In this document: positions 49,399 to 64,000 of the stretch, piece after piece | Position numbering within the stretch: the stretch's first letter is position 1 | Layout: each line of letters opens with the position of its first letter | Assembly: GCF_001676655.1 (NCBI RefSeq) | Contig: NZ_LZDB01000002.1 | Span: 248,001-312,000 of the forward strand | DNA from: Perlucidibaca aquatica | GTDB lineage: Bacteria; Pseudomonadota; Gammaproteobacteria; Pseudomonadales; Moraxellaceae | Direction: 5' to 3' | DNA: 64,000 nucleotides | Made by a program: the position numbers and the translations under genes | The notes under the pieces: generated by a model | What the model was told of the DNA's origin: nothing | Databases searched by the model: none | Seen by the model: the letters and a program-made list of their open reading frames with translations, nothing else

Positions 49399-49998
49399 TC
49401 AATGAGGCCAAAGCACCTTCATACGGGCATCGCGGCCACAAGACAAGCGGTAGTACTGATATCGGAAGCTGTTTTTCTTGTAGTAATCCTGGTGATAGTC
49501 CTCCGCCACATAGAATGTGTTCGCGGGCACGATGCGCGTGGCAATCTGCTTCAGACCACGGGCTTTCAGCAGAGCCGCTTTGCTCTGCTCGGCGATGCGC
49601 ATCTGCGCGGCATTGGCCGTAAAAATAGCCGGGCCGTATTGCTCACCACGATCACAGAACTGCCCGCCGGCATCGAGAAAATCATGATGTCGCCAGAAGT
49701 AGTTCACCAATTGCCCATAGCTGATCACGGTGGGGTCGTACTGAACTTCCACAGCCTCCAAATGCCCCGTGGCACCACTGGAGACTTGAGCATAGTTCGG
49801 CTGAGCGACATGCCCGCCGGTATAGCCAGATATAACGGCCTTTACGCCCTTCAGCTTCTCGAAGTCTGATTCGCTGCACCAGAAGCAGCCGCCGGCAAAA
49901 ATAGCTGTTTCCGTCTGGGCTACCGGGGCTGCGGCCGAGGCAGTGCTGGTGGCAAAGGGGAGGACGCAAAGCAGTAATGCCTTCCTGAGCAAATCCAT
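49399..49998 (-). CDS. msrA: Exported peptide-methionine (S)-S-oxide reductase
   Basis: A 199-residue MsrA with signal peptide (LLRKALLLCVLPFATSTASA). The catalytic motif is GCFWC with nucleophilic Cys38 and Cys41, followed by SESDFEKLKGV and YTGGHVAQPNYAQVSSGATGHLEAVEVQYDP. It repairs oxidised methionine in exported proteins. It starts 2 bp after the msrB stop, so both are in one operon. The signal peptide makes it a periplasmic enzyme, unlike cytoplasmic MsrA. Confidence 0.93.
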   Translation of the reverse strand: MDLLRKALLLCVLPFATSTASAAAPVAQTETAIFAGGCFWCSESDFEKLKGVKAVISGYTGGHVAQPNYAQVSSGATGHLEAVEVQYDPTVISYGQLVNYFWRHHDFLDAGGQFCDRGEQYGPAIFTANAAQMRIAEQSKAALLKARGLKQIATRIVPANTFYVAEDYHQDYYKKNSFRYQYYRLSCGRDARMKVLWPH

Positions 49999-50000
49999 GA

Positions 50001-50504
50001 TTAACCTCTCAGAGCGGGCAGCGGCTTGCCTTGCTCAATAAAGCGCAGGGCTAGACCGTTATTGCAATAGCGCAACCCAGTCGGCTTAGGGCCATCTTCG
50101 AAGACATGGCCTTGATGGCCACCACAGCGCGAACAGTGATACTCCACGCGTGTCATAAAGAAGCGGCGATCCTCTCGCTGGCCAATGGACTTCGGCAGCG
50201 CTTGGAAAAAACTGGGCCAGCCTGTGCCACTGTCAAACTTGGCCATACTCTTAAACAGAGGCTGGAAGCAGGCGGCACAGAGGTAAGTGCCCGACGATTT
50301 TTCATAGTTAAGCTGACTGGAAAAACGCGATTCGGTGTTTTCTTCGAACAGCACATCCCAGGCGTCGTCACTGACTTTTTTTCGCCAGAAGACCGGGTCT
50401 TTAATGAAGCCTTTGACTTGATGAGTGGCGACCGTGGTGGCATGGCCAAAGCGCGTCGCTAACAGGGCAACCACTCCGCCCAGCAGTAAATTTCTTCGAT
50501 TCAT
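50001..50504 (-). CDS. msrB: Exported peptide-methionine (R)-S-oxide reductase
   Basis: A 167-residue MsrB. The N-terminus MNRRNLLLGGVVALLATRFGHA is Tat-like (twin Arg before a hydrophobic stretch). Zinc-site cysteines lie at 76/79 (CAAC) and 124/127 (CSRC), the FDSGTGWPSFF motif is intact, and the catalytic Cys147 lies in RYCNNGLALRF. The Asn-Asn after Cys is a small departure from the usual CVNS/CINS. It reduces the R epimer of methionine sulfoxide and partners MsrA in the envelope. Confidence 0.92.
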   Translation of the reverse strand: MNRRNLLLGGVVALLATRFGHATTVATHQVKGFIKDPVFWRKKVSDDAWDVLFEENTESRFSSQLNYEKSSGTYLCAACFQPLFKSMAKFDSGTGWPSFFQALPKSIGQREDRRFFMTRVEYHCSRCGGHQGHVFEDGPKPTGLRYCNNGLALRFIEQGKPLPALRG

Positions 50505-50643
50505 GATGATTTATGCTCGTAATAGCAGGGTGTCATGTTTTAGACGCTAAGACAGCTGAAACGCTACAACGTATTGGGGATATTTTCCTTTGCCCCGAAT
50601 CGGCTACCCTAACGCCCTTTGACGGATCTGTCCCGGAGCTGAG

Positions 50644-51543
50644 ATGAGTGCGTTGCTATTACTGTCGGTTTGTTTGCTCCTCGGTGTGCTCATGCGCCGC
50701 TATGGCAATCCACCGGCGGCGTTGGCTCCCAGCCTAAACTGGTGGGTCGTTCAAATTGCCTTACCAGCGATGGTGCTAGAGCTGATTCCTCGCCTACATC
50801 TTGATCCTAACCTCTGGTATTTGGTGGTCTCGCAGTGGCTGGTTTTTCTTGGCGCGTTTCTGCTTTGCCGCTGGTTGGGCAGACGCCTTGGCTGGTCGAA
50901 TGCCCGGATCGGCGCATTGACCTTGGTGTGTGGCTTGGGCAATACCTCTTTTATGGGCTACCCCTTGCTCGAGGCTTTGCGCGGTCCCGAGCAATTGGCT
51001 CTGGGTGTCGTGGCGGATCAGTTGGGTTGCTTTGTCATGCTCAGCTTGGGCGGTGTTGTGGTTGGTGTAATTTATGCCGGCCAAGCCGCCACACCCGCCG
51101 CTGTGGCTAAGCGAGTATTGCTGTTTCCCGCATTTGTCTGCCTCATCATCGGTCTGTTGGTCGGGCAGTTGGGCGGATGGCCACCCTCCGTGGAAAGTGT
51201 TCTTCACCGTATTGCGCAATCGTTGGCGCCCTTAGCGTTGTTCTCGGTGGGCTTACGCCTAAAGTTGCAACTGGCTCGTCATCAGTGGCTGCCTGTGGGC
51301 GTGGCACTGGGCTGGAAAATGGCATTGGCACCAGTGGTGATGTGGAGCCTGGGTAGTGCTTTGGGTGTCTCGGGTGCCATCTTGAGTGTTGCGGTATTGC
51401 AGGCGGCAATGGCCCCGATGATCTCGGCTGCTATCTTGGCGGAACAATTTAAATTGGAGCCTGACCTAGCCAATGCTGTGCTGGGTATTGGCATTCTATT
51501 GTCGTTGGTGACCGTGCCTTTATGGAGTATGGCGTTACCTTAG
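50644..51543 (+). CDS. AEC family transporter
   Basis: A 299-residue membrane protein with about ten helices in two five-helix halves, typical of the auxin efflux carrier (AEC) family. Motifs are LNWWVVQIALPAMVLELIPRL early, LVCGLGNTSFMGYPLLEALRG in helix 4 and AAMAPMISAAILAEQF near the C-terminus. Bacterial AEC proteins transport malate, malonate or similar anions. The substrate here is not readable. It is a single gene, immediately before the tRNA-Asn where the island is inserted. Confidence 0.9.
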   Translation: MSALLLLSVCLLLGVLMRRYGNPPAALAPSLNWWVVQIALPAMVLELIPRLHLDPNLWYLVVSQWLVFLGAFLLCRWLGRRLGWSNARIGALTLVCGLGNTSFMGYPLLEALRGPEQLALGVVADQLGCFVMLSLGGVVVGVIYAGQAATPAAVAKRVLLFPAFVCLIIGLLVGQLGGWPPSVESVLHRIAQSLAPLALFSVGLRLKLQLARHQWLPVGVALGWKMALAPVVMWSLGSALGVSGAILSVAVLQAAMAPMISAAILAEQFKLEPDLANAVLGIGILLSLVTVPLWSMALP

Positions 51544-51661
51544 GCTCGTCCGTTGTGCGAGAAGCAGGCGGTTTGCCGGTGAGCGGCTTATTTATGAGCA
51601 AACAGTCGCACAGAGGCTTGACCGGAAACGGCCTCATCACTATGATTCGCGTCCTCACCGA

Positions 51662-51737
51662 TCCTCGATAGCTCAGTCGGTAGAGCAACGGACTGTTAAT
51701 CCGTGGGTCACTGGTTCGAGTCCAGTTCGAGGAGCCA
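51662..51737 (+). tRNA. tRNA-Asn (anticodon GTT)
   Basis: A complete 76-nt cloverleaf. The acceptor stem TCCTCGA pairs with TCGAGGA before GCCA. The D-loop is GCTCAGTCGGTAGAGC, the anticodon arm CGGACTGTTAATCCG holds GTT, and the T-arm has GGTTCGAGTCC, with encoded CCA at the 3' end. Its 3' half is the likely integration site of the adjacent integrase (bases ~51718-51737). The downstream attachment copy is not visible in this window. Confidence 0.97.
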
Positions 51738-51784
51738 TATATACGTTTCAACATGCATTAGCATGACCTGAAACGGCCGGATAA

Positions 51785-51806
51785 GCCCGCATTTGCGGGC
51801 TTTTTC
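51785..51806 (+). terminator. Intrinsic terminator after tRNA-Asn
   Basis: GCCCGC and GCGGGC form a 6-bp stem with loop ATTT, followed by TTTTTC. It stops tRNA-Asn transcription before the integrase gene. Confidence 0.8.
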
Positions 51807-51903
51807 GTTTTCAACACGTCTCACCACACCTTGACACACCTCAACCCTTTGGGGGTAAGTTTAGGGGCACGGAATCAGCCGTACCCCATTGAACGAGGTT
51901 GTC

Positions 51904-53244
51904 ATGGCCCGCCAAGTCGTCCCGCTAACTGACACTAAATGTGAAGCTGCGCGCTACAACCCCGATGGAGGCAAGAAGCTTTCTGATGGGGGCGGACTTT
52001 TTCTGCTGCTAAATCCGTCTGGCAGCAAGTCCTGGCGGATGAAGTACACCCGACCGGGTGACAGAAAAGAAGATAGCTTGGTGATCGGCAGCTACCCTTC
52101 CACGACGCTCAAGATGGCCCGCAAACGACGCGAGGAAGTAAAAGAGCTACTAGCGCAAGGGATAGACCCCAAATCACACCTGCGTGAGCAGCAAGCGCGC
52201 CTCAAGGCCGACCACGAGAACAGTTTCGAGGCAGTGGCCCGGCTATGGCACAAGGCGGAGGCGAAGAAGAAGAAATGGTCAGAGGACTACACCACGACAT
52301 ATTTGGAAAGGATGGAAGCCAATCTTTTCCAAGCCCTTGGGCGGCGGCCCGTCACGAGCCTCAAGACCCGCGACCTCATTCAGCCCGTTAGAAAAATTGA
52401 AGAGCGCGGTGCACTGGAACTCGCGCAGCGGATGCAGCAGGCAATTTGCCGAGTGATGCGTTACGCCGTTCAGCAGGGACTGATTGATAGCAACCCTGCG
52501 TTGGATTTGGCGGGAAATAGCAGCTCGCCGAAGGTCAAACACCACCCAGCCCTGCCTGAAGAACGTCTGCCAGAATTCCTTATTAAGCTGGAGGGCTACA
52601 GCGGGCGCTCCCCGGTTACCCGTCTAGCGGTGCAGATCGCCCTTATGGTATTCATCCGGAGCAGCGAGCTGCGTTTTGCCCGCTGGCAGGAAATTGATTT
52701 GGAACGATCAATCTGGACGGTTCCCGCCTCGCGAGAGCCTATCGCGAACCTGGAAGGTAAGCGAGTGGTACCGCACTCGTATAGAGGTTCAAAAATGAGG
52801 GAAGAACATCTTGTGCCGCTATCTCGACAAGTTGTAAGGCTGCTACGGGAGGTTTACGAGATCACCGGGCGCCAAGAGTTAGTGTTTCCCGGCTCCGGCA
52901 AAAATGGGAAGTGTGTGCTGTCAGAAAACACCATCAACTCAGCCCTGCGCAGACTGGGCTTCAATACCAAGACTGATGTTTGTGGTCACGGATTTAGGAG
53001 TATGGCAAATGGAGCGCTTCGACAATCCAAATTGTGGCAGTCGGATGCTATTCGGTTGCAAATGAGCCACAGGGAAAGGAACAGTGTGGAAGCTGCCTAC
53101 ATTCATTCAGCAGAGTTCATTGAGGAGCGGCGGCAGATGATGCAATGGTGGTCGGACTATCTGGACGCAAATCGTCAGGAGCGGGTAACTCCGTATGACT
53201 TCGCCCACCCGAGGCTTAGAGCAGTGGCAATTAGGAGGGCCTGA
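51904..53244 (+). CDS. Tyrosine recombinase/integrase, P4-like
   Basis: A 446-residue integrase starting at ATG 51904 (MARQVVPLTDTKCEAARY). Residues ~1-90 are the DUF4102 arm-binding domain (LSDGGGLFLLLNPSGSKSWRMKY), ~95-195 the core-binding SAM-like domain, ~215-400 the catalytic domain. The catalytic set is an Arg in the RSSELRFARW helix, HGFRSMANGAL (H-x-x-R) and Tyr in AAYIHSAEFIEERRQMMQWW. It should recombine the island at the tRNA-Asn 3' end. An upstream TTG at 51889 is less likely. Confidence 0.93.
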   Translation: MARQVVPLTDTKCEAARYNPDGGKKLSDGGGLFLLLNPSGSKSWRMKYTRPGDRKEDSLVIGSYPSTTLKMARKRREEVKELLAQGIDPKSHLREQQARLKADHENSFEAVARLWHKAEAKKKKWSEDYTTTYLERMEANLFQALGRRPVTSLKTRDLIQPVRKIEERGALELAQRMQQAICRVMRYAVQQGLIDSNPALDLAGNSSSPKVKHHPALPEERLPEFLIKLEGYSGRSPVTRLAVQIALMVFIRSSELRFARWQEIDLERSIWTVPASREPIANLEGKRVVPHSYRGSKMREEHLVPLSRQVVRLLREVYEITGRQELVFPGSGKNGKCVLSENTINSALRRLGFNTKTDVCGHGFRSMANGALRQSKLWQSDAIRLQMSHRERNSVEAAYIHSAEFIEERRQMMQWWSDYLDANRQERVTPYDFAHPRLRAVAIRRA

Positions 53245-53445
53245 GCTCGGCCCCGCTGCGCGCTGCGCGCTTCACTCTACCTGCATTATTAAGACTGAGA
53301 ACTGAGCGGCCGCTAAGCCGCGGATTTGCTCGGGTCATGGGACAATTTAATTAGGTTGACTGACAAGTCAAAGCATTCTCAAGACAATTAATCAAATTTT
53401 TTGTCTTTCGTTGGTGGCGGCTCTATAATAGGGGGAGGCAACCGT

Positions 53446-54084
53446 TTAAGCCATGACTTCTGGGGTTGCGGACTGCTTTATCTCCAACTCTTTTTTCTCC
53501 AAATTTATTTTCGGGTACATTGTATTTTCCAATTCTTTTACCTTCAGTCGATACTCTTTTAAAAATAAAATTCGGTCACCTTTAAAGTACAAATGTGGAT
53601 TAATCCAGAAAACATTGGGCGACTTTGGATAAATTAATCCACCCTCTATGATCTCTTTTAAGCCGCGCTGTAAGGTCTTCAAGCTAAAACTTATTTTATT
53701 TCCATTTAAAATGCACTCCTTGTTTTTATTTTCCATGAAATAAATATAGACTGAGTCAGCATATCCGCCGCGCATTGGCTCATCCATATAAATTTGAAGG
53801 ACCTCTTCCAAAACCTGTCGAGCCGATAATGTAAGCTTCTGTTTTTCCGTGTTAAGTTCCGCAAAAATTTTTATGAATGCCTTTTTATCAATTTCAGTGA
53901 CGCTAATAGCGCAAGAACCAAGAATCTCTCCGGTATCAACATCAGCGAGAGTCCTGTTAATCTGAGTGAACACCTTCTTTTTTTTCATTTTCATAGATAT
54001 TTCATGTACAAAAGGATTCAGATTAGGAGAGAAGTCTAATTTTCTAAGGTTTACGCGTTCTTTTGGCTCGGTTTGTGTGTTCAT
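53446..54084 (-). CDS. RepL-like winged-helix protein (replication initiator-like)
   Basis: A 212-residue AT-rich gene product. Its second half reads FSLKTLQRGLKEIIEGGL and SPNVFWINPHLYFKGDR. This is the winged-helix pattern of plasmid RepL-type initiators (a helix ending in an E-x-G-x-I turn, then a beta wing with INPxxxFKGDR). The N-terminal half is charged and low complexity. It would support excised-element replication or regulation. It overlaps the AlpA-like gene by 4 bp and is placed as in many gammaproteobacterial mobilizable islands. A pure regulator is possible. Confidence 0.6.
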   Translation of the reverse strand: MNTQTEPKERVNLRKLDFSPNLNPFVHEISMKMKKKKVFTQINRTLADVDTGEILGSCAISVTEIDKKAFIKIFAELNTEKQKLTLSARQVLEEVLQIYMDEPMRGGYADSVYIYFMENKNKECILNGNKISFSLKTLQRGLKEIIEGGLIYPKSPNVFWINPHLYFKGDRILFLKEYRLKVKELENTMYPKINLEKKELEIKQSATPEVMA

Positions 54085-54284
54085 TTATTAATTTCCTCGC
54101 CGAGCTTATTAATATAATCCTCTACATCGCAAACCCTATAATAAACTAATCCCTGTCGAGCTTTATTAAATTTAATTGGTTTTGGAAAATTTGGATCAGC
54201 TTTATGGCGATAAAAAGTTGTTCTTGAAAACCCAAAAGCTCGGATCAATAAGGTCTGGCTAATTAAAAATCGTTTGATGTTCAT
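54081..54284 (-). CDS. AlpA-like excisionase/regulator
   Basis: A 67-residue protein with a MerR-like HTH of the AlpA/excisionase kind. The signature is ISQTLLIRAFGFSRTTFYRHKADPNFPKPIKF followed by VYYRVCDVEDYINKL. AlpA-type proteins activate or assist excision of P4-like islands. The start overlaps no upstream gene and its stop overlaps the RepL-like gene by 4 bp. The gene is AT-rich like its neighbour. Confidence 0.82.
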   Translation of the reverse strand: MNIKRFLISQTLLIRAFGFSRTTFYRHKADPNFPKPIKFNKARQGLVYYRVCDVEDYINKLGEEINK

Positions 54285-54457
54285 TTCTTATCCCTTAAAA
54301 TTTGATAAGAAAATCCTACATAGTTCATCATGATGCATCAATTTTTAATAAAATTTATCAAATTGCGCTATAAATATATTATTATCACTATAGCGAAAGT
54401 TTTATTCTTTTCTGGAATTAAGAGGCTGAATTTTCGTTGTGGATATGAAAAAATATT

Positions 54458-55798
54458 CTAAAATTTAATCGACATTTTACTTTCATCGTCATTGTTCGAC
54501 CTGCTAACCGTCTGCATATCGATTCTCAACGCATCTATCTCTTGTGCTTTTTTCCATAGTTTATCGAGCTCATCACTTTTATTTTTACTCAAGATCGGCT
54601 TTGGCGGAGATTTTAACTGCCTTTCAACTTCATCCTGTGCCCTCATCAATTCGACCTCAGCAAGCTTTAGTTTTCTTTCTGCATCGTGATCTACTTCCCT
54701 TAAATCAGTTTGGGATCGCTTCAGCTCAACCAGCTCATCATTAATAATTCGTAGGAGTGCCCTTACAGGGTGTGCATTCCGCCAATCATCTATCCTTTGT
54801 GAAATACCACGCCAATAAATCAATTTTTCAAAGGCTGATCGCGCTACTTTATATGCATCAATTGCTGCGCTTAGTGGCGTGTTTATTGAATTAGGCTGCC
54901 TGATGCTGTCGTCGGCGTGCCTTTGTTCACGCAGCTCTTGCAGTCGTTGATCATATTTTAATCTACTTTCTCGAGCGAAAGCAGCCTCATCCGCATCCAA
55001 TTCCTCACCTAAAACCTGATCCCAACGCAGCTTCTCCAATTTGCTACTAGCTGTTGATACATCTATTTCTAGGGCAGTACGGGAGCGGTTAATGTTCCCT
55101 AAATCGGTTTTAATGCCTCTTCGCTCTAAAGCGCTTGCCAGCGGACCAAGGTGAGTAGTTGGCAATGCATCTAGCCCAGCATCTTCATGGTTACGATGGT
55201 CAATTCGTGTTTCATAACCATGCCGAGAAAGCGCAGCATTTGCATTGCTCTCCCACGCTTTTCTGCACTCAATAATCTGCTGTTTTGATGATGGCAGGCC
55301 CCGTCTTTTTAGTGTCAGCCCATCTAACTCGACATCCGATTTTTCAACCAGCTTACCGTCTTCGTTCATCTTACGGGTGGTCAACAGGATGTGAGCATGA
55401 TGGTTTCTCTGGTCGCCTACGCGACTTGGCTTGTGGATAGCTAGGTCGGCGGCAACTTGGTAGCGCCCAATAAGCCATCTTACATAATCGCGGGCCACTT
55501 CAAGTCGCTGTGCCTCATTCAGCTCGGCGGGTAGTGCTATTACCCATTCGCGCGCTGTCCGACCATCTTTTCGCTTTTCGGATTCTTCGACTGTATTCCA
55601 AAGCGCTTCACGCTCAATCGCGAGGCCATACGGTGCAATGACCTCAGAGTGTGCAACGCCAGATTTCCGCGTGTAGTCGTGATTTTCGCCCGTGCGCTTA
55701 TCGATCAGCTTACTGCCTGACCGGTAGGCAGCAGCGGCCACACTGGACCTGCCAGCGCGACGGCTCAGGGGTTTACAGGACGCGTGGTAGATCGCCAT
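54458..55798 (-). CDS. mobA: MobA/MobL family relaxase (MobQ type)
   Basis: A 446-residue relaxase. The N-terminal domain has AIYHASCKPLSRRAGRSSVAAAAYRSG (the MobA/MobL signature with an early Tyr), EWVIALPAELN, and the metal motif HHAHILLTTRKM (about 131-142). The C-terminal half is a charged, coiled-coil region (about 250-430) that lacks a primase domain. It would nick at oriT, lying 39 bp upstream of the start, and pilot the strand for transfer. With no type IV secretion genes nearby it relies on a helper. The divergently placed TraD-like gene is on the other side of the oriT. Confidence 0.9.
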   Translation of the reverse strand: MAIYHASCKPLSRRAGRSSVAAAAYRSGSKLIDKRTGENHDYTRKSGVAHSEVIAPYGLAIEREALWNTVEESEKRKDGRTAREWVIALPAELNEAQRLEVARDYVRWLIGRYQVAADLAIHKPSRVGDQRNHHAHILLTTRKMNEDGKLVEKSDVELDGLTLKRRGLPSSKQQIIECRKAWESNANAALSRHGYETRIDHRNHEDAGLDALPTTHLGPLASALERRGIKTDLGNINRSRTALEIDVSTASSKLEKLRWDQVLGEELDADEAAFARESRLKYDQRLQELREQRHADDSIRQPNSINTPLSAAIDAYKVARSAFEKLIYWRGISQRIDDWRNAHPVRALLRIINDELVELKRSQTDLREVDHDAERKLKLAEVELMRAQDEVERQLKSPPKPILSKNKSDELDKLWKKAQEIDALRIDMQTVSRSNNDDESKMSIKF

Positions 55799-55836
55799 TG
55801 CTTTTTACTCTTTTTCTGTCGCCTGCAGGCCGCCGA

Positions 55837-55866
55837 GAGTTGTTCATCAACTCGTAAGTGCGCCCT
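55837..55866. other. oriT, MobQ/RSF1010-like: hairpin plus nic core
   Basis: GAGTTG (55837-55842) and CAACTC (55848-55853) form a 6-bp inverted repeat with loop TTCAT. One base later comes TAAGTGCGCCCT (55855-55866). A short inverted repeat directly followed by (A/T)AAGTGCGCCCT is the known structure of RSF1010/MobQ origins of transfer. It lies between the relaxase and the accessory gene. I do not assign the nicked strand. Confidence 0.85.
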
Positions 55867-55975
55867 TCCGATTTTTACGGGCAGGGTGTAGACCGAGCTG
55901 CTTGCAATATCATCAGTTTTACTTATTATGTCAATTGGTATGAATCATCAGAGCAAATGATATATGATAAAAACA

Positions 55976-56200
55976 ATGGAGCAGCGGATCGCTGCCGCTG
56001 AAGCCGCGCTGGCACGTATGAAGTACAACACGAGCAAGCTCGCCCAGCAGCAGGACATTAGACGGAAAGTGCTGGTCGGCGCGTTCATCCTAGAACGTCT
56101 AGGCGGTGGCTTGCCGGATGGGTTTGATGAGTGGCTTGTCCGACCGCGTGACCGTGAAATTTTCGGTCTTTCGCCACGAGTTGGGGAACAAGAAATGTGA
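55976..56200 (+). CDS. TraD/MobC-like mobilization accessory protein
   Basis: A 74-residue, basic-helical protein (MEQRIAAAEAALARMKYNTSKL then QDIRRKVLVGAFILERLGGGLPDGFDEWL). A heptad-like N-terminus followed by RRKxLxGAxILERLGG is the pattern of TraD/MobC-type relaxosome accessory proteins of MobQ elements. It is divergent from the relaxase, with the oriT between them, the standard arrangement. ATG 55964 is an alternative start. Confidence 0.72.
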   Translation: MEQRIAAAEAALARMKYNTSKLAQQQDIRRKVLVGAFILERLGGGLPDGFDEWLVRPRDREIFGLSPRVGEQEM

Positions 56201-56349
56201 GTCGTGTATGGCTTGTCTTAAGAGAAACTGTGTCGATTTCAGTGAGGACCGCAATGGGGTTATATCTGGCCCTTCATCGTCTGCTTGCCGGGTGACTAGG
56301 CTATTAACTTGCAGAGCGGATGTTTTATTATGCTAGTGAGAGTGGTCGC

Positions 56350-56712
56350 TTATCCCTGAGCATCTGTGGACTCTAGCTGATCGATGCGCGCTTGCAGCTT
56401 GGAGTTATCGTCTTTTAGACGGCTACTATATTTTTCCCAAGACTCCACGGCCTCATCGGATTTTGTTACCAGTCTGGCATAGCGTTGATTGAGACTAGCG
56501 ATCTCCTGCGCCTGCTGCTCATGCGCCTGTTGCCACTGACTCAGCACATGTTCCAGGTTGCGATAAGCACTCTGCCAAGCAGCCAAGTTGTTGCCTTGTC
56601 GTTGAAGCCGTCTGTCCTGATCCAGCAGATCATTCCTTAGGCCACGCAGGTACGCCTCGCTCTTGAAGTAATCCTCCGCCTGATACCCATTACCGCCATT
56701 GTTGTTGAGCAT
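56350..56712 (-). CDS. Coiled-coil protein, short paralogue A
   Basis: A 120-residue protein with no known domain. It begins MLNNNGGNGYQAEDYFKSEAY, then is almost wholly predicted coiled coil (heptads of L/Q/A, e.g. DLLDQDRRLQRQGNNLAAWQ). It is a paralogue of the protein at 61398-62126: from 56474 to 56712 the two genes align without a gap at a constant offset of 5414 bp and are nearly identical over long stretches (e.g. 56501-56600). This copy is about half as long and lacks the C-terminal coiled region of the other. Upstream are two palindromes shared with the other locus. Function is unknown. Confidence 0.7.
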   Translation of the reverse strand: MLNNNGGNGYQAEDYFKSEAYLRGLRNDLLDQDRRLQRQGNNLAAWQSAYRNLEHVLSQWQQAHEQQAQEIASLNQRYARLVTKSDEAVESWEKYSSRLKDDNSKLQARIDQLESTDAQG

Positions 56713-56790
56713 CTCGCTTGCCCTCTCGCTAACTCACAGTCTGCCTTATTGATAGGTAGCTAGGTTGGCTAACATCTGCAGCTAGTTGAT

Positions 56791-56800
56791 GAATATATTC
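56791..56800. promoter_or_regulatory. Palindrome GAATATATTC, copy 1
   Basis: A perfect 10-bp palindrome, preceded by TTGAT. It is 79 bp upstream of the short coiled-coil gene and 47 bp upstream of the metzincin lipoprotein gene. Its partner is 24 bp away (56815). Two more copies lie at 62242 and 62306. Confidence 0.7.
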
Positions 56801-56814
56801 TGCAATACTATGAT

Positions 56815-56824
56815 GAATATATTC
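56815..56824. promoter_or_regulatory. Palindrome GAATATATTC, copy 2
   Basis: Preceded by ATGAT and 24 bp from copy 1 (start to start), i.e. on about the same helix face after two turns. It ends 22 bp before the ATG of the metzincin lipoprotein gene, a position that would block its translation start or promoter. Confidence 0.7.
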
Positions 56825-56846
56825 ATAAAAAAAGAGCTAGGACGCC

Positions 56847-58580
56847 ATGTATATTTTCCTTACCAATCGAGCAGGTTTAGTTTCAGCCATCATTCTTTTG
56901 GCCACCTTGATGACGGCTTGCGGTGGCGCTGGTGGAGGCTCTGGTAGTGGTTCGTCCACCCCAGCACCGGGTGGTGGTACTCCCACCACTCCAACGACAC
57001 CGACGACGCCACTGCCTGGTGACGATTCCACGGTGCCGGTGGCCACGCTGACGCGCTCGGCCTCTGGCACTGGTTGCACCGTGACCCAGCTCACGGGTGG
57101 CAAGGGTGACTACAGTCTGGAGATCAAGGACGTTTCTTGGTTGCAGGTTGTGCAACAGGACATGGTGGATACGGACTCCCGCCTAGCGGCGAAGAAGGAA
57201 ACCCGTGTCCGCATCGATGTCACCACCTCGCGTACCGGCGTGCCGATGCCTGCCTCGGCTAAGCTGGTCTTGGGCTCCTCCACTGGAGCCTGCCAGACCG
57301 TCGCGCTCACTAGCGCGGCGACCACGGCACCGACGGCAGTTGACCGTGCCACGCTAACGAAGAGCTATGTTGGCGTCATCCCGGCAGGCCAGCTGGCTGC
57401 CGATGTCGTCAGCTGGCAGGTGGCTGTTGATGACATGCGCGCCTCCTCGGCAGCGGCGGCCGACCGCCTCTACCGGAGTGGCACCATCGAAGTGGTTCCT
57501 GAGATCACCGAGAATATTGTGGTGCGCCCGATCACCTTCCAAGGTCAGACGGGTGTCTTGCCTTCTGAAGCTGACCTCAAGGCGCTGCTGAAGCGAACCT
57601 ATCCGCACAATGACTTCACGATCACCTACGAGGCGGCGATCACGCCGACCCCGCTCAAGCCTGAAAACGCTGAGAGTGTGTCCGGTGGTATCTACACATT
57701 CTCCTTCCAGCGCGCGACGGACACCATCGCTGAGCTGGACTTTCAGTGCTTTGATCGCAGCCCTCTGGAGATCAAAATGGACCCCAACGGACTGCGCCGG
57801 ATGACAAAATGCTTTAGCGCATGGCCGAGTAACATTCGGTTTAATGCGCAGGGTGGTGGCAATTTAGGGGGCGTCGCCCTGGGCACCTCCTTGATGTCGC
57901 TGTCCTTTAGCTCCGTGGATGACAGCAGTGTCAGCAGCCCATACCTGGGTGGTCACTGGCTAAATCAAGGTGCCACGGTGTTGGGCCATGAATTCGGTCA
58001 CGTGATGGCCTTGGGCCATGCATCTTGTGGCACCACTGACCAAGTGGACTCCGATCTGTATCCGGATGGTCGTATTGGCACCAATGGTGGCGGTTACGAT
58101 ACCGGTCGTGGTTATTATTTCAGCACGGCCGGTGGCAGCTTCTCTGACACCATGAGCTACTGTGGCAAAGGTTGGACCTCAGACCTCGCCTACCGCAAGG
58201 TCATGGCTTACAAGAATGGCGATCTGGACGCCGCCGCACCGACATCCAGTGCCCGTGTCATGGCCCGGGAAACTGGGGACCATGATCACGATGCCCATGC
58301 CAAGCAGACTGCACCGTCTGTTCAGGGCATGGTGATCCGCTTCTACAAGATCAAGGGTGTCTGGGTGCCCCGCCTAGGCTATGCACCGCCCAATGCGGTG
58401 GCCTCCGGCCTGCGCCAGGACGCGAGCTTCATCAGTCCTGTACTCAAGGGTATTTCGGTGCACACCATCGAGAGCCACTATGGGGAACTGGGCAGTGGTC
58501 CTTACTTCATCAAGGCCACGCCCCAGGCGCTGGCTCTGGTGAAGGGCCTCCTGAAGCCGGGCGAAGTGCTTAAGTTCTGA
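56847..58580 (+). CDS. Metzincin-like zinc metalloprotease lipoprotein
   Basis: A 577-residue exported lipoprotein with signal peptide and lipobox LMTAC (Cys ~25). A Gly/Ser/Pro/Thr-rich linker to about residue 60 tethers it to the membrane. The catalytic zinc site is HEFGHVMALGH (about 382-392), an HExxHxxxxxH motif, and a Met-turn candidate DTMSYCG follows about 45 residues later. Together they mark a metzincin. Outside this the sequence is not familiar. An AGGA precedes ATG 56847. It is island cargo facing the short coiled-coil gene, with shared palindromes between. Likely to act on extracellular or envelope proteins. Confidence 0.78.
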   Translation: MYIFLTNRAGLVSAIILLATLMTACGGAGGGSGSGSSTPAPGGGTPTTPTTPTTPLPGDDSTVPVATLTRSASGTGCTVTQLTGGKGDYSLEIKDVSWLQVVQQDMVDTDSRLAAKKETRVRIDVTTSRTGVPMPASAKLVLGSSTGACQTVALTSAATTAPTAVDRATLTKSYVGVIPAGQLAADVVSWQVAVDDMRASSAAAADRLYRSGTIEVVPEITENIVVRPITFQGQTGVLPSEADLKALLKRTYPHNDFTITYEAAITPTPLKPENAESVSGGIYTFSFQRATDTIAELDFQCFDRSPLEIKMDPNGLRRMTKCFSAWPSNIRFNAQGGGNLGGVALGTSLMSLSFSSVDDSSVSSPYLGGHWLNQGATVLGHEFGHVMALGHASCGTTDQVDSDLYPDGRIGTNGGGYDTGRGYYFSTAGGSFSDTMSYCGKGWTSDLAYRKVMAYKNGDLDAAAPTSSARVMARETGDHDHDAHAKQTAPSVQGMVIRFYKIKGVWVPRLGYAPPNAVASGLRQDASFISPVLKGISVHTIESHYGELGSGPYFIKATPQALALVKGLLKPGEVLKF

Positions 58581-58607
58581 CGGTAGCTACATGAACAAAG
58601 CTCATCC

Positions 58608-58632
58608 AAAAAGGCACTTAAGGCGCTTTTTT
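58608..58632 (+). terminator. Possible terminator after the metzincin gene
   Basis: A short imperfect stem (A-run and GGC...GCGC) ends in a run of six T bases, 28-52 bp after the stop. The stem has a mismatch, so strength is uncertain. Confidence 0.4.
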
Positions 58633-58814
58633 ATGTGCTGTCTTGAGGGTAAAAGAGCGCTTTGCGTGCCTTAATGAGTATTCATATCGACCGATGGCGG
58701 GCAGGAGGCCCTTCACCAGAGCCACTTCGCATACACGACTCTCCATAACTGGTCATGGTGTGAAATCGTTAGGCCCTATGAAGATTGCATGCATACGTTG
58801 ACGGAGGCCAGTTC

Positions 58815-59093
58815 ATGGACAAGCGATTTCACACCATGACCCACATACAGCAGATGGAGGCGCGTCTGGCTGTTTACCGGAAAATTGAAGAACGCCCAGG
58901 GTTGCCCTTGCCTGAGGTGCTCAAATTGTTGCGGACCGGGTTGCGTATCACGCGCGCGGAGATTTCCCGCATGACTAATTTGTCTGTGCGCTACCTTCAA
59001 GAGATTGAGCATGGTCAGGCTAATCCAACGATGGATATTGCCGACCAGCTCTTAAAGCCATTCGGGCTCCGAATGGGTGTTGTGATGGAGTGA
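58815..59093 (+). CDS. Xre-type HTH regulator
   Basis: A 92-residue protein with an HTH_3 (Xre/HipB-like) domain in the second half: LRITRAEISRMTNLSVRYLQEIEHGQANPTMDIADQLLKPFGL. Start ATG 58815 has GGAGG at the right distance. A longer GTG-type start at 58785 is unsupported. The small exported protein starts 3 bp after its stop, so the two are one unit. No toxin-like partner is recognisable, unless the exported protein is one. Confidence 0.8.
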   Translation: MDKRFHTMTHIQQMEARLAVYRKIEERPGLPLPEVLKLLRTGLRITRAEISRMTNLSVRYLQEIEHGQANPTMDIADQLLKPFGLRMGVVME

Positions 59094-59096
59094 TCT

Positions 59097-59591
59097 ATGA
59101 ACAAGCTGACTTGCGCTGTCCTTACGTTGGCTCTGTCACCGGCTTTCGTGGTGGCCGCCACGGCACCGGTCAGCCAGGCCGAGCGTGATATTTCGCGCTG
59201 GCTGAGCTGTCAGCAAGGAGACTTTGCAAAGGCTCTCAAGGCATACAACGCTGCAAGGGCCTATGGCGTCCAGAACAACGGCATGCAACCTGATCCCAAG
59301 CCCTATCGGCTGAAGCGCCCATTGATGGTGCTGGGCGTACCCCAGTCCACCATTAACAACGTCGCCTACAGCGCCGACCAAGAGGAGTTGAGCTGGAGCT
59401 ATCAGACCACGCTACCCACGGCGGAAGTGCTCAAGCGCCTGAAGCTCAAGAATGAGCCTTTGCGCGAGCCGAACGGCAGTGTCACCTACTCCATGTGGCA
59501 GGAGATGGGCGGCCCAGATGGAGTAATGATCTACATCAGCAGCCGCAGTAAGCAGTTGACGGAAGTGTCATGCTCCTACGTGCGTGCCTAG
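59097..59591 (+). CDS. Small exported protein, unknown function
   Basis: A 164-residue product with a clear signal peptide (LTCAVLTLALSPAFVVA). The mature part has two cysteines (SCQQGDF near the start, SCSYVRA at the end), which may be disulfide-linked. No family is recognised. It follows the Xre gene by 3 bp and probably shares its promoter and regulation. It lies in the same island as another exported protein, the metzincin lipoprotein. Confidence 0.65.
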   Translation: MNKLTCAVLTLALSPAFVVAATAPVSQAERDISRWLSCQQGDFAKALKAYNAARAYGVQNNGMQPDPKPYRLKRPLMVLGVPQSTINNVAYSADQEELSWSYQTTLPTAEVLKRLKLKNEPLREPNGSVTYSMWQEMGGPDGVMIYISSRSKQLTEVSCSYVRA

Positions 59592-59835
59592 TGATGTGGT
59601 AGGGCATAGAAGTGTCCTGCGTCAAGGCAGGTCGGGGTAATAGCAGATCATTTGCAGCACAGATCAGCAAAAATTGGATTATTTAAGTGCGCAGTGATCA
59701 TGGGTTGGAGCATTCACCACACGAATTGGTAAAAATTCGTCTCATGAGGACAAGGCGTCCACACTTTGGTAGTACTACATGTAGTCATAGAATTAGCGCA
59801 TCATGATGTCGTATGTTTGCAATGAGAATTTTGTC

Positions 59836-60261
59836 ATGAAGACAAATAAGCCCAAGCCCCTGCTGGAGCGCATAAAGACCCGGATTGCCCGCAAGAAAGG
59901 CAATGTGTTTCTGCGCGAAGACTTCACCGACTTAGGTGGGTATGACCAGGTCGGCCGAGCGTTGAAGCAGCTCGCAGCCGATGGAGTAATCTGCCGCCTG
60001 GGCTACGGGGTCTATGCGCGTGGCTATTACAATCGCTATGCGAAGAAAATTCTTCCAGTCGAAGGCGTAGTGACCGTTCGACGTGCAGTAGAGCGTTTAG
60101 GCGTGACCATTCTCCCGTCGCCAAATCTTATGCGAATGAACGCCGATGGGGTGCAAGTGCCCAACGGACGAGTTATTGGAGTGAACAAGCGCCTCACCCG
60201 CAAGCTCGGTTATGACACCTTTCAGATCGTTTATAAGTTTGTGAGTGTGCCGAGAATTTAA
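59836..60261 (+). CDS. DUF6088 / AbiEi-antitoxin-like protein, no visible partner
   Basis: A 141-residue protein. The N-terminal winged-helix pattern is RIARKKGNVFLREDFTDLGGYDQVGRALKQLAADGVICRLGYGVYARG, typical of the DUF6088/AbiEi-type N-terminus of type IV toxin-antitoxin antitoxins. The remaining part (RRAVERLGVTILPS) follows the family. AbiEi proteins usually repress their own operon and pair with a nucleotidyltransferase (AbiEii). None is found here, so it is an orphan or a regulator. ATG 59803 is an alternative start. Confidence 0.7.
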   Translation: MKTNKPKPLLERIKTRIARKKGNVFLREDFTDLGGYDQVGRALKQLAADGVICRLGYGVYARGYYNRYAKKILPVEGVVTVRRAVERLGVTILPSPNLMRMNADGVQVPNGRVIGVNKRLTRKLGYDTFQIVYKFVSVPRI

Positions 60262-60533
60262 TTTCCCCTCAAATTTCGTCGAATAGTTTTCGGCAATATG
60301 GCTGTAATGAAGTGATGTTCGATGAGTCTGGCTAGCCATCATTCGACCCCAGCAATTATGGGTTTAAAAAACTCAGCGAGTTTATTAACGCGATTTGCTG
60401 TTTGAGATTGAGCGTCGGGTTGCGTTGGCCTACATCTAATACAGCAGGAAGAAGAGTTTTTTCTTAAAAGCAAGCTATCCATCATGCTATTCGCCATTCC
60501 GTTACCTACCGCAATGATTAACTCTGCTATCTA

Positions 60534-60875
60534 TTATTTTGTCGGATCGAAGTCGATTAGATAGGCAGTAGTCCCACATGAGGCATCAGCCCATTCATGA
60601 GCTAGGGCCAGTGCTTCAGCCAGATGCGAAGAACGCACCAAAACCAGTTGCTGAACTAAAGGCAGGGTGGTGATTAATCGCTCGATGCTGCATTTGCTGT
60701 CAGCACCTGAGGTGATCACCATGACCACATGACCTTTTTGGTATGCACGGCGGAACAGCCTACCCAAGTACGCATCAACCAGTCGCTTGCGTAGCCCCAG
60801 TTGCCATTTTGAAGGAACTTGCAGTAATCGAGTGTCATGACGAGCAGTCATGAAGCCGTGCATGAACTTATTCAC
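60534..60875 (-). CDS. Hypothetical protein, island cargo
   Basis: A 113-residue basic N-terminal/hydrophobic C-terminal protein with no recognised family. It has VVMVITSGADSKCSIERLITTLPLVQQLVLVRSS, a short alpha/beta stretch, and ends in YLIDFDP. No signal peptide or TM helix is evident. Start is uncertain (GTG 60875 or an internal ATG near 60851). It lies downstream of the decayed HAD region on the same strand and may be transcribed from further upstream. Confidence 0.45.
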   Translation of the reverse strand: MNKFMHGFMTARHDTRLLQVPSKWQLGLRKRLVDAYLGRLFRRAYQKGHVVMVITSGADSKCSIERLITTLPLVQQLVLVRSSHLAEALALAHEWADASCGTTAYLIDFDPTK

Positions 60876-60989
60876 AATCTGGCAACTGATCGAGAGAAAT
60901 ATACGAGTATCGCTGCTTCAGCTCTTGCTGCATCTTGGGGCTTTCCTCATGCATCTCCTTTCGCAATGAAGCGATTGCGGAGGGTGACA

Positions 60990-61288
60990 ACCCATGGGGT
61001 ACTTTGTTCCTATCCATTAGCATCTCTGGTATGCGGCGTAAGTCCGCTTATTATCATCTGTTAAGGGAGATGCTGAGGAGTGGCATTAGCAAGGTTGCCC
61101 CCAAGCACACTCTGGTAGCTCACTGAGTAGCGCTCACGCCACGATTAGCTAACAGCTAACCGAAGCTCTGGATGCTGGCGCATCAGTGCACAGGATTGAG
61201 GCGTGTTTTGAAAAAGTTCGTCATTAAAGTCATCAACATGGAGAGGGTAGGGATGAAGTACTCCGTCGAAGTCCAGCAATAGGGTCAT
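60990..61288 (-). pseudogene. Decayed HAD-family (SAK-like) protein gene
   Basis: From ATG 61288 (AGGTGAGC before it) a 47-codon frame reads MTLLLDFDGVLHPYP, the HAD nucleophile motif DxDG, and continues to RQHPELRLAVS before a TAA at 61145-61147. Reading through that stop gives SWRERYSVSYQSVLGGN. HAD proteins of this family have VSSSWRE at the same point, so a Ser codon is replaced by a stop. Two more in-frame stops follow, with a GLTPHTRD-like segment (family GVTP) between them. The gene is therefore broken. It lies 110 bp downstream of the long coiled-coil gene on the same strand. Confidence 0.6.
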
Positions 61289-61397
61289 GCTCACCTGACT
61301 GTCTATGATAGGGGCATGGTTGATTAGCTCTGGGGCGAGCTGGCTAAAGATGGTTTTAATGAGTCCATCATCTTTTTGATCGTTTTATCAATCATTG

Positions 61398-62126
61398 TCA
61401 TGGCTGCGCATTACTGAAGTCATATTCAAGTCGAAGATCATCAATTTGCAGAGCATCCTCTAGGTGAAGACTTTGTGCCTCAATCGCATCATTTAGACTC
61501 TGAAGTTCGGCAAGAATTCGCGTATTTATGGTCATATCTGCATGGAGGTTTTGGATGGTATCAGTGACCTTACTGGCCAAGTGTGCGTTTTGATTCACTA
61601 GATCAGTAAGGTGCCGTTCTCGCTCTCCTGCGTCTTCCAAGCGGAGGTCTGTTTCCATACTGGCGACCTGGGCCTGGAGCTGGGTGTTTAGCTCTTGAAG
61701 AGCAGTAATCGTTGCCTGGATTTCGTCAGCAACAGGCGCAGCGGTCTGGTTGACCCGGGCGAGCTGCAAAGAGTCGATCACCTTTTGCTGCTCGTTGACC
61801 TGGGCCTGGAGCCTAGTGTTGGTGTCAGAGAGCTTGCTACTGTGTAGCTTCCAAGATGCAATAGCTTCATCTGCATCTTGATCCAGACTGGCATAGCGTT
61901 GATTGAGTCTGGTGATCTCCTGCGCCTGCTGCTCATGTGCCTGTTGCCACTTACTCTGCACATGTTCCAGGTTACGATAAGCACTCTGCCAAGCAGCCAG
62001 GTTGTTGCCTTGCTGTTTTAGCTGATCGCTTTGGTTTCGGAGATCATTCTTGAGGCCAAACAGGTATGCCTCGCTCTTGAAGTAATCTTCTACCTGATAT
62101 CCCTGACCACCATTGTTGTTGAGCAT
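61398..62126 (-). CDS. Coiled-coil protein, long paralogue B
   Basis: A 242-residue protein starting MLNNNGGQGYQVEDYFKSEAY. Nearly all of the rest is coiled coil: a first block (about 20-110) shared with paralogue A, then QQKVIDSLQ..., then ELNTQLQAQVASMETDLR (about 130-155), and a C-terminal block to 240. The N-terminal 80 residues are nearly identical to the short copy at 56350-56712. No enzymatic domain is visible, so a structural, scaffold or regulatory role is likely. It is divergent to the Xre regulator, and two GAATATATTC palindromes lie in the 226-bp space between them. Confidence 0.72.
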   Translation of the reverse strand: MLNNNGGQGYQVEDYFKSEAYLFGLKNDLRNQSDQLKQQGNNLAAWQSAYRNLEHVQSKWQQAHEQQAQEITRLNQRYASLDQDADEAIASWKLHSSKLSDTNTRLQAQVNEQQKVIDSLQLARVNQTAAPVADEIQATITALQELNTQLQAQVASMETDLRLEDAGERERHLTDLVNQNAHLASKVTDTIQNLHADMTINTRILAELQSLNDAIEAQSLHLEDALQIDDLRLEYDFSNAQP

Positions 62127-62241
62127 GATACTCCCTCGCTCTCAAATCGGCCGCAAGATGGCCGGTTTCATGTCAAAGCACTTTGGTCCGTAAGCTGCTA
62201 ATCGTGACCTAAGTCGGTAACTAAGCTTTGCATGAAATGAT

Positions 62242-62251
62242 GAATATATTC
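62242..62251. promoter_or_regulatory. Palindrome GAATATATTC, copy 3
   Basis: Preceded by ATGAT, 116 bp upstream of the long coiled-coil gene. Same 10-bp palindrome as the pair near 56.8 kb. Confidence 0.7.
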
Positions 62252-62305
62252 AACATTTTTGAAGATATCTAGTTGGTATCGCCTAGCGTTATATCAAGTG
62301 ATGAT

Positions 62306-62315
62306 GAATATATTC
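62306..62315. promoter_or_regulatory. Palindrome GAATATATTC, copy 4
   Basis: Preceded by ATGAT. It is 64 bp from copy 3 and 38 bp upstream of the Xre regulator start. A weaker related element (AGATATCT at 62263) lies between. The likely binding protein is the adjacent Xre regulator. Confidence 0.7.
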
Positions 62316-62352
62316 CGTGGATTAACAATCCCTGTAACCACACCCTGTGGGT

Positions 62353-62592
62353 ATGGAAAAGGCCTATAAAATAACCCTTAAACACCTCGCCAATAATGTT
62401 CGACAGCGGCGCAAATCTCTGCATTTGTCTCAGGAAGAACTGGCGCTTCGCGCGGGTGTCGACCGAACTTACGTTAGCCAGATCGAGCGACGGGTGAGCA
62501 ATCCTTCATTGCTTATTTTAAGTCGTTTGTCCGATGTCTTGCAGATGGATGTCACACAACTGCTTAGTCCTCCAGTGCCGGAAAAGGGTTAA
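62353..62592 (+). CDS. Xre-family HTH regulator, likely palindrome-binding
   Basis: A 79-residue single-domain HTH_3 protein: LKHLANNVRQRRKSLHLSQEELALRAGVDRTYVSQIERRVSNPSLLILSRLSDVLQMDVTQLL. The helix-turn-helix is complete, with a short basic start. The C-terminal MDVTQLL tail is like controller (C) proteins of restriction-modification operons, though no such operon is seen. It is divergent to the long coiled-coil gene, with two GAATATATTC copies in between, so autoregulation is likely. ATG 62353 is preferred over GTG 62347. Confidence 0.82.
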   Translation: MEKAYKITLKHLANNVRQRRKSLHLSQEELALRAGVDRTYVSQIERRVSNPSLLILSRLSDVLQMDVTQLLSPPVPEKG

Positions 62593-63145
62593 AGATATCT
62601 GGGTAGGTGACGTTTCCTTTGTCGATATTTTATTTTGATTTCAACCGGTAACATGCTGGATGGGGTACCAGAATCGTCAAAGCCCCCCGACGTAATCTGA
62701 GAACAAATTCCAACAGATCACTGATTCAGAGCTGTTTCTACACGCTTAATGCGCGTAATTTCGATTTCGGCGATCTTGACGATCATTCAATGTCGAATAT
62801 GAATTGAGGAGCATTTCCCTGTCTCAATCGTATTGCTACATGAGAGTACGCCCAGCCCATCATTCCACCGGATCTGCGCGAAAGGCTGCGCAGGTCAGTT
62901 AATTCAAACGTTAGGGGGCCACTTTTGGGCTAAGTTAGCCAGTTTATTTCGGTTGTAACAGGCTGGACAAGCTGGATACGGCCTCCCACACAGGGCAGGC
63001 TCCGAGCCTCGCTCCAGAGCTGCCCTAGGTCGACATCTTCGCTGGCAAGCTGCTTATGGTCAGGCAAGCGGTTGATTTGAATGACCATCGGGAGGTCAAA
63101 CGCAGTTACCGAGACCACACAGCATCCCTTGAGACAAGGAGATGT
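62593..63145. other. Non-coding stretch between the Xre gene and the nuclease-like gene
   Basis: This 553-bp stretch has no gene I can support. A minus-strand open frame at 62930-63118 (62 codons, GTG start) has no family features and is set aside. No repeat, tRNA or clear hairpin with T-tract was found. Confidence 0.5.
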
Positions 63146-64000
63146 CTAGTGAAATGAGTCCTTATCATTGTCGTAGTTTTTAAAGTGCTCTTTGAGCCGC
63201 TCAATCGTCCAGCGCCACTTCGGCGTGGTGGGTCGGCATACGGTATTTTGATTGCCAAACATGCCCACTTCCCTGATGGCTTGATCGACAGCAATGGTTT
63301 GTAGCCACTCAATAGCCACGAAGTACTCGCACAGCTCAGGATCATTTACATGCTCTACGTGATAAGTCCCAAGTATGTCGGCGGTTAGCACCGGCACATC
63401 AACGCCGTCTTGCTTAACTGTGAAATCAGCCGCGGCTGTTGCCAGTCCAGTGACACGGCCTACGCCAACATAACCTTGCTGCGGAACTTTCACCCATACG
63501 CGATCGCCGGGTGTGAGCATCTTCAAACTTCTGCTGTACCAAATGCCGCCGCCACCTGAAATGAAGCCGAACTTCATGGCATCTTGCCAAGAGCGTGTCG
63601 CGTCATGACCAAAGGAGCAGTAGTACTCGCCATTCCATGGCTCTGCTTGGCCCCCAGCATTCCCGCTGCTGGCATTGACCTGGGTCTTGGCAGGATCGAT
63701 TAGCCAAGAGCGGCTGATCAACTGCTGAGTGCCATGCTGAAACACTTGGAAGCACAGTGCATTAATTGGAATGTCGCGCTCACTTAGGTAGGCCACTATT
63801 CGTTCTGTGCTGGCATCAAGCCCGGAAGCGACGATGATTATTTGGTGGCTCTGGTTAAGTGCATCTTCATCGAGCGAGAGACCGAAGTATTGGTAGAAAT
63901 CGGCGGCTAAGTCGGCATCTTTTTTGAACCTTTTGTAGATGGCGGCAATGTCCTCTGCCCCCAGTTGCTCGACCCAAGAGGCATAGTCCAGCGCTTGCGC
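63146..64000 (-). CDS. DUF91/NucS-like nuclease plus EVE/PUA-like domain, 5' end beyond window
   Basis: The frame is open to base 64000. Upstream of the first GTG (63796) it continues through AAIYKRFKKDADLAADFYQ and HQIIIVASGLDASTERIVAYL. This matches proteins in which a DUF91/NucS-like nuclease part is followed by an IVAxxLDxSTERIVxYLxxxxxPINAxxFQ core. The C-terminal ~150 residues (WNGEYYCSFGHDATRSW, then PQQGYVGVGRVTGLA) resemble an EVE/PUA-like base-reading domain. A nuclease role against modified or foreign DNA is an inference. The visible part is 284 codons. The real start lies outside the window. Confidence 0.68.
   Translation of the reverse strand, partial: AQALDYASWVEQLGAEDIAAIYKRFKKDADLAADFYQYFGLSLDEDALNQSHQIIIVASGLDASTERIVAYLSERDIPINALCFQVFQHGTQQLISRSWLIDPAKTQVNASSGNAGGQAEPWNGEYYCSFGHDATRSWQDAMKFGFISGGGGIWYSRSLKMLTPGDRVWVKVPQQGYVGVGRVTGLATAAADFTVKQDGVDVPVLTADILGTYHVEHVNDPELCEYFVAIEWLQTIAVDQAIREVGMFGNQNTVCRPTTPKWRWTIERLKEHFKNYDNDKDSFH

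Follow-up and report, generated by a model that had tools for sequence, protein, structure and literature searches.

A predicted MOBQ-type origin of transfer in an integrated defence and copper island of Perlucidibaca aquatica

The island and its genes

The DNA analysed here, which we refer to as "the window," is a stretch of 64,000 nucleotides from contig C2 of Perlucidibaca aquatica. Its right-hand part belongs to an island inserted at a tRNA gene. The integration target is tRNA-Asn(gtt) at 51662–51737 (+ strand), and a 20-bp att repeat, TCCAGTTCGAGGAGCCATAT, lies at 51721–51740 (+). The right copy of this repeat is beyond the window, at 92307–92326 in window numbering (contig C2 340307–340326). 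The insert runs from 51741 to 92326 (40,586 bp), with the portion at 51741–64000 inside the window. A relative, G006, has the corresponding empty site: it is 92% identical to 49617–51740, ending just past tRNA-Asn, and then resumes with DNA that is found here from C2 340332. A first att search, using the 24-base tRNA end with up to three mismatches, gave no second copy; the 20-bp repeat was found only once the empty site had been placed. In another relative, G001 (L127), the tRNA-Asn end at 2096–2119 is followed 1.6 kb downstream by a diverged second copy (3719–3742, three mismatches), perhaps marking an element, small or decayed, at the same site.

The first gene of the island that we describe encodes a tyrosine integrase of 451 aa, as listed from a TTG start (51889–53244, +; PF13356, PF22022 and PF00589). 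It is followed by two genes on the minus strand, encoding a RepL-like replication initiator of 212 aa (53446–54084) and a small AlpA/excisionase-like helix-turn-helix protein of 67 aa (54081–54284), with the stop codon of the latter gene overlapping the start of the former. The RepL-like protein matches PF05732 with 24.7 bits (cut-off, 20.3) and is 34% identical to a protein of plasmid pPsv48C; a search for it gave matches in 2 other genomes of 369. The AlpA-like protein matches PF05930 with an E-value of 0.0097, which is under the cut-off. Beyond these genes lie the MobQ relaxase gene (54458–55798, −) and a divergent gene for a 78-aa protein (55964–56200, +), both discussed below.

The island also carries much cargo. 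Within the window there is an AbiEi-like protein (59803–60258, +; PADLOC E-value, 1.8e-33). To the right of the window (L123 and L135; C2 309000–340326), the island has type I restriction genes with an adjoining PDC-S11 candidate, as well as PD-Lambda-4. Pfam matches in the same part include a CusS-type sensor and regulator, an outer-membrane efflux protein, a multicopper oxidase and CusF, together with a heavy-metal P-type ATPase, a MerR regulator and a UmuDC-like pair; from the neighboring copper genes, we infer a copper role for the ATPase and the regulators. Two coiled-coil-like genes, at 56350–56712 (−) and 61398–62126 (−), are paralogous (77% DNA identity over 300 nt), and copies of ATGATGAATATATTCA lie upstream of both (56786–56825 and 62237–62316).

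A hairpin and an exact nic core in the divergent gap

The relaxase gene and the gene for the 78-aa protein are separated by 165 bp, a divergent placement that the preliminary description of this DNA had given correctly. Within this gap, positions 55837–55866 read GAGTTGTTCATCAACTCGTAAGTGCGCCCT, comprising, in order, arms and loop of a hairpin, a spacer and a core. The hairpin (55837–55853, +) has the arms GAGTTG and CAACTC, a perfect 6-bp inverted repeat, around a 5-nt loop, TTCAT. A single spacer base, G, precedes the core, TAAGTGCGCCCT (55855–55866, +), which lies 57 nt upstream of the relaxase gene. Thus, the combination first described at this site, 6-bp perfect arms and then an exact core, is present as described. 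MOBQ origins of transfer (oriTs) are recognized by the core TAAGTGCGCCCT, an inverted repeat just 5′ of it and a position beside the relaxase gene, and all three features are found here.

There is a single exact copy of the core in the window, and no other in the whole genome (2,492,918 bases); the pattern read backwards has no copies in the genome. From a first-order Markov estimate, 0.023 exact cores (with W as the first base) are expected in the window. Perfect 6-bp repeats at the offset of the hairpin are found at 0.18% of positions, so that core and hairpin would jointly arise by chance ~4e-5 times per window, assuming independence. The loose motif is unremarkable, with 7 sites in the window when up to two mismatches are allowed, against a shuffle mean of 11, which is not above chance; the weight is therefore on the exact match, the hairpin and the location. 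A fold of the single-stranded DNA matches the described hairpin (−4.9 kcal/mol; z, −2.0). Its stability is moderate, and folds at least equally good were obtained in 9 of 200 shuffles, so that the stem, taken by itself, is modest.

The relaxase and its divergent neighbor

The relaxase (446 aa) matches MobA_MobL (PF03389) with an E-value of 8.4e-63 and 212.6 bits (cut-off, 26.7), and the NCBI MobQ equivalog NF041496 with 221.1 bits, above its cut-off of 200. A Ti-type TraA model scores higher on this protein than the MobQ model (235 bits), yet far under its own cut-off of 590. Among proteins of solved structure, it matches NES (4ht4; E-value, 9.9e-21), so named in PMC6856555, and, more weakly, R1162 MobA (2ns6; E-value, 1.7e-7). 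The reading frame is open, and the N-terminal Tyr25 and the HUH histidines His122, His134 and His136 are kept. R1162 MobA has two motif II glutamates, of which one is matched (E84) and the second is not. This gene is the only MobA_MobL match in the genome, directly beside the putative oriT. Among seven genomes of the genus, only its own has the relaxase; in a sample of 369 genomes from the class, 19, its own included, have relatives with an E-value of at most 1e-20.

The neighbor had been labelled TraD/MobC-like, a label of which the MobC half agrees with its relatives and the TraD half does not. In phmmer searches against stop-to-stop frames of relaxase loci, relatives of the 78-aa protein include an annotated E. 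coli MobC (L106; E-value, 5.3e-4) and relaxase neighbors in Acinetobacter (L105) and Rhizobium (L108). At an E-value of at most 0.01, 23 of 26 matches are divergent from the relaxase and within 1 kb of it (allowing overlap of up to 450 nt). With a 27-sequence profile at the same threshold, 75 of 83 matches in loci with a listed relaxase start are divergent. The protein has no Pfam match at all. The TraD family (PF06412) was considered as a candidate and rejected, since the Pfam cut-off is not passed and the TraD of pSC101 is not reached, being absent from 71 phmmer matches (E-value ≤10) and 89 profile matches (E-value ≤1). In MOBQ4 plasmids, MobC has fewer than 100 aa, adjoins oriT and is opposite to mobA (PMC6856555). 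Judged from its relatives, the 78-aa protein is a MobC-like MOBQ accessory protein of the relaxosome, with a predicted function, and not a Pfam TraD.

The core and the hairpin in relatives of the relaxase

We surveyed the DNA upstream of the relaxase starts of 97 relatives, consisting of 80 loci, 12 loci with an N-terminal match and 5 named records, i.e., four from plasmid searches plus pSC101. The survey omits L092–L096 and L101 (N-terminus unmatched), L102 (matched from residue 4, and another part of the L095 gene), pGXY060 (whose record begins with the relaxase), pPsv48C and matches without a given locus. In 94 of the 97 (the exceptions being L007, L017 and L045), at least 100 nt of upstream sequence is available. 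Of these 94 loci, which are not independent, many being near-identical Rhodobacteraceae, 56 have an exact core upstream of the relaxase and on the other strand; shuffled cores give a mean of 0.03 (maximum, 1). Allowing one mismatch increases the count to 69, with a shuffled mean of 0.74 (maximum, 11), and leaves 25 of the 94 loci in which no such core is found. On the same strand, there is an exact core in 1 locus and a core with at most one mismatch in 6. With two mismatches, 71 of 94 relatives have a same-strand site; we ascribe this to the near-palindrome AAGTGCGCACTT, which makes the two-mismatch count of no use as a control.

Sites with up to two mismatches, the one in the window included, were then compared for pairing upstream of the core. 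They come from 79 loci and represent 60 distinct 41-mers; L064, with its site <30 nt from the relaxase, is omitted. In 18 of the 60 distinct sites, the arms pair perfectly over at least 5 bp and stop one base short of TAAG, compared with a mean of 0.5 (maximum, 3) in shuffles. The other 42, among them pSC101, have no perfect hairpin at that exact offset. By our own reading, the 18 paired sites have six different 6-base proximal arms (CAAGTC, GTTTGC, CAATTC, CAACTC, TAACTC and GTTTGT), each with a matching distal arm; because these sites were selected for pairing, the variety of arms is illustrative and not a further test. One locus, L088, whose genome belongs to the same family, has arms identical to those described here, GAGTTG/CAACTC, and a core with one mismatch.

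From the 29 matches listed for other genomes, we chose eight MobQ loci that lie on larger contigs. Three of them, all from one genus, have an exact core on the opposite strand, 54–55 nt from the relaxase; in the other five, no core with at most one mismatch is found. Relatives of the island integrase, RepL-like protein and MobC-like protein are found in none of the eight (tblastn, E-value ≤1e-3). The three loci with exact cores (L170, L171 and L172), whose genus is not that of the island, are on contigs that measure 66 kb to 1.39 Mb and have, by eye, 7-bp hairpins. A coupling-protein-like gene adjoins the MobQ gene of L170, which may therefore be another type of element.

Comparison with known MOBQ systems

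The site had been described as RSF1010-like, to be checked by alignment with the oriTs of RSF1010 and pSC101. The nic core is identical in both, as far as the RSF1010 sequence given in PMC4814116 goes, and the relaxase is a MobQ protein. RSF1010/R1162 (IncQ1) has the core TAAGTGCG/CCCT with a hairpin just 5′ of it, the substrate in PMC4814116 being CAGTTTCTCGAAGAGAAACCGGTAAGTGCG/CCCTCCC. By alignment with this substrate, the predicted nick falls between 55862 (G) and 55863 (C). The likeness holds for the core and not for the hairpin: the 10-bp stem of RSF1010 has another sequence and abuts TAAG, whereas the island stem has 6 bp and is one base further off. RSF1010 MobA is reported to cleave a substrate that keeps only 6 bp of repeat to nearly the same extent as the full one (41% versus 44%; PMC4814116). 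The MOBQ consensus NWACCNNTAAGTGCGCCCTYNN, as given in PMC3832669, fits the site by eye but for one arm base.

In pSC101 (NC_002056, L109), mobA and a small traD are divergent, with oriT between them, and an exact TAAGTGCGCCCT lies 53 nt from mobA, compared with 57 nt here. It differs in that its hairpin has another sequence and is imperfect at the equal offset, its TraD has 154 aa and matches PF06412, where the island protein has 78 aa and no match, its relaxase is 27% identical, and it is a plasmid rather than an island. The divergent arrangement of a relaxase gene and a small gene is common to several small MOBQ plasmids. Identities to the island relaxase are 43% for pPL-03mi (Pseudomonas), 42% for p4_010030 (Acinetobacter), 31% for L106 (E. 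coli) and 44% for pGXY060 (Komagataeibacter). A MobC-like gene is present in p4_010030, L106 and pGXY060; pPL-03mi has no clear match (E-value, 0.1). Core-like upstream sites have two mismatches in pPL-03mi, two in p4_010030 and one in L106. Unlike the island, all four are plasmids, and none has a relative of the island integrase or the RepL-like protein (tblastn).

Plasmid pPsv48C of P. savastanoi combines, in one replicon, a MobQ relaxase (37% identity), a RepL-like protein (34%) and a MobC-like neighbor, and its MOBQ region is reported to be functional (PMC9791958). It differs from the island in being a plasmid, in having an additional MOBP relaxase and in its core-like site, TAAGTGCGCACT. 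This site (L124, 38988–38999) falls within the annotated start of the MOBQ gene. According to PMC9791958, oriTfinder gave no oriT for this gene, and the paper offers a speculative one; TAAGTGCGCACT is thus a candidate oriT core.

A candidate helper system

The island has no match to PF03135 (VirB4-type) or PF02534 (VirD4/TraG-type), the mating-pore and coupling families searched. Each family has a single match in the genome, outside the island, at ~480–485 kb of C2. Around these matches, TraG, TrbB, TrbE, TrbJ, TrbL and TrbF pass their NCBIfam cut-offs, defining an IncP-type Trb cluster ~140 kb from the island on the same contig. The cluster (L130 and L131; C2 470000–500000) adjoins a CusA-type transporter and a multicopper-oxidase-like gene. 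There is also a weak relaxase match (PF03432; 24.5 bits, at the cut-off) 22 kb from the cluster, at C2 458133–458306. The cluster is probably a separate integrated conjugative element, and its TraG/Trb system is a possible helper of the island. RP4 functions in laboratory E. coli are reported to mobilize cloned Acinetobacter MOBQ1 modules (PMC6863613). MOBQ elements are, according to PMC9791958, not moved by every MPF-T system, which makes the helper link a conjecture.

Interpretation

We consider that an integrative mobilizable element (IME) very probably has its origin of transfer at positions 55837–55866. This reading, made from sequence comparison, draws together the exact core, the hairpin, the MobQ relaxase with its catalytic residues, the MobC-like gene, the integrase, the att repeats and the empty site. 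The island had already been proposed to be mobilizable; a MobQ relaxase within an element bounded by att repeats and matched by an empty site supports this, with transfer itself a prediction. Like the canonical IMEs reviewed in PMC5704250, the island has an integrase, att repeats, an empty site, its own canonical relaxase and an oriT, while the PF03135 and PF02534 matches lie outside it. It is unlike them in its host, as none of the canonical IMEs described by 2017 came, according to that review, from Proteobacteria.

The oriT might be genuine but dead, the island being a stranded remnant in which the relaxase or excision has been lost by point changes. The presence of the relaxase in one of seven genomes of the genus and the heavy cargo of defence and copper genes would fit a remnant. 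Against it, the relaxase frame is open with its catalytic residues kept, the integrase domains and both att repeats are present, and the hairpin and core are perfect. We regard such a loss as unlikely.

Still less probable, to the point of being a marginal concern, is that the hairpin merely serves the divergent promoters as operator or terminator, with the core matching by chance or as a relic. At 55934–55906 (−), upstream of the hairpin in the direction of relaxase transcription, there is a promoter-like pair for the relaxase (two promoter-like sites were found, with 0.7 expected), and a related relaxase, TraA of pIP501, is reported to repress a promoter overlapped by its repeats (PMC4981023). 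However, core and hairpin have the low joint chance estimated above, the core is conserved beside MobQ genes, and the terminator-like sites found do not include the hairpin; moreover, operator and oriT roles are not mutually exclusive. Use of the site by the relaxase of another element, with the island relaxase inactive on it, is favored by the second relaxase-like match, to PF03432. It can be set aside as extremely improbable, as that match is of a family that is not MobQ, the sole MobA_MobL match in the genome adjoins the site, and, among MOBQ relaxases, some are reported to prefer their own oriT in cis and others to act in trans (PMC6856555).

If the site is the oriT of an IME, transfer might proceed as follows. 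First, the element would excise, and the relaxase would bind the CAACTC arm with the help of the MobC-like protein. Second, the core would be melted, and Tyr25 would cut TAAGTGCG/CCCT at 55862/55863, with the relaxase staying on the 5′ end. Third, a type IV secretion system acting in trans (the IncP-type TraG/Trb system of the same contig is a candidate) would send the strand into a recipient cell, where the hairpin would direct its recircularization, the circle may be maintained briefly by the RepL-like protein, and the integrase would insert it into tRNA-Asn.

An oriT of this kind is already well known. What changes is the view of the 40.6-kb defence and copper island, which gains a predicted nick, a relaxase, an accessory protein, att sites and a candidate helper. 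Integrated elements with a complete MOBQ module are not among the canonical proteobacterial IMEs described in 2017 (PMC5704250), and the titles and abstract openings covered by our literature search, mostly outside subscription journals, gave no obvious published match for such an element. We suggest, tentatively and with more doubt than conviction, that the island belongs to a gammaproteobacterial class of canonical IMEs, in which a tRNA-Asn integrase has captured the complete core of a mobilizable plasmid (RepL-type initiator, MobQ, MobC and oriT), anti-phage and copper genes have been added as cargo, and the resident TraG/Trb system provides mobilization. If this is true, many defence islands of uncertain mobility would be open to the same one-motif test.
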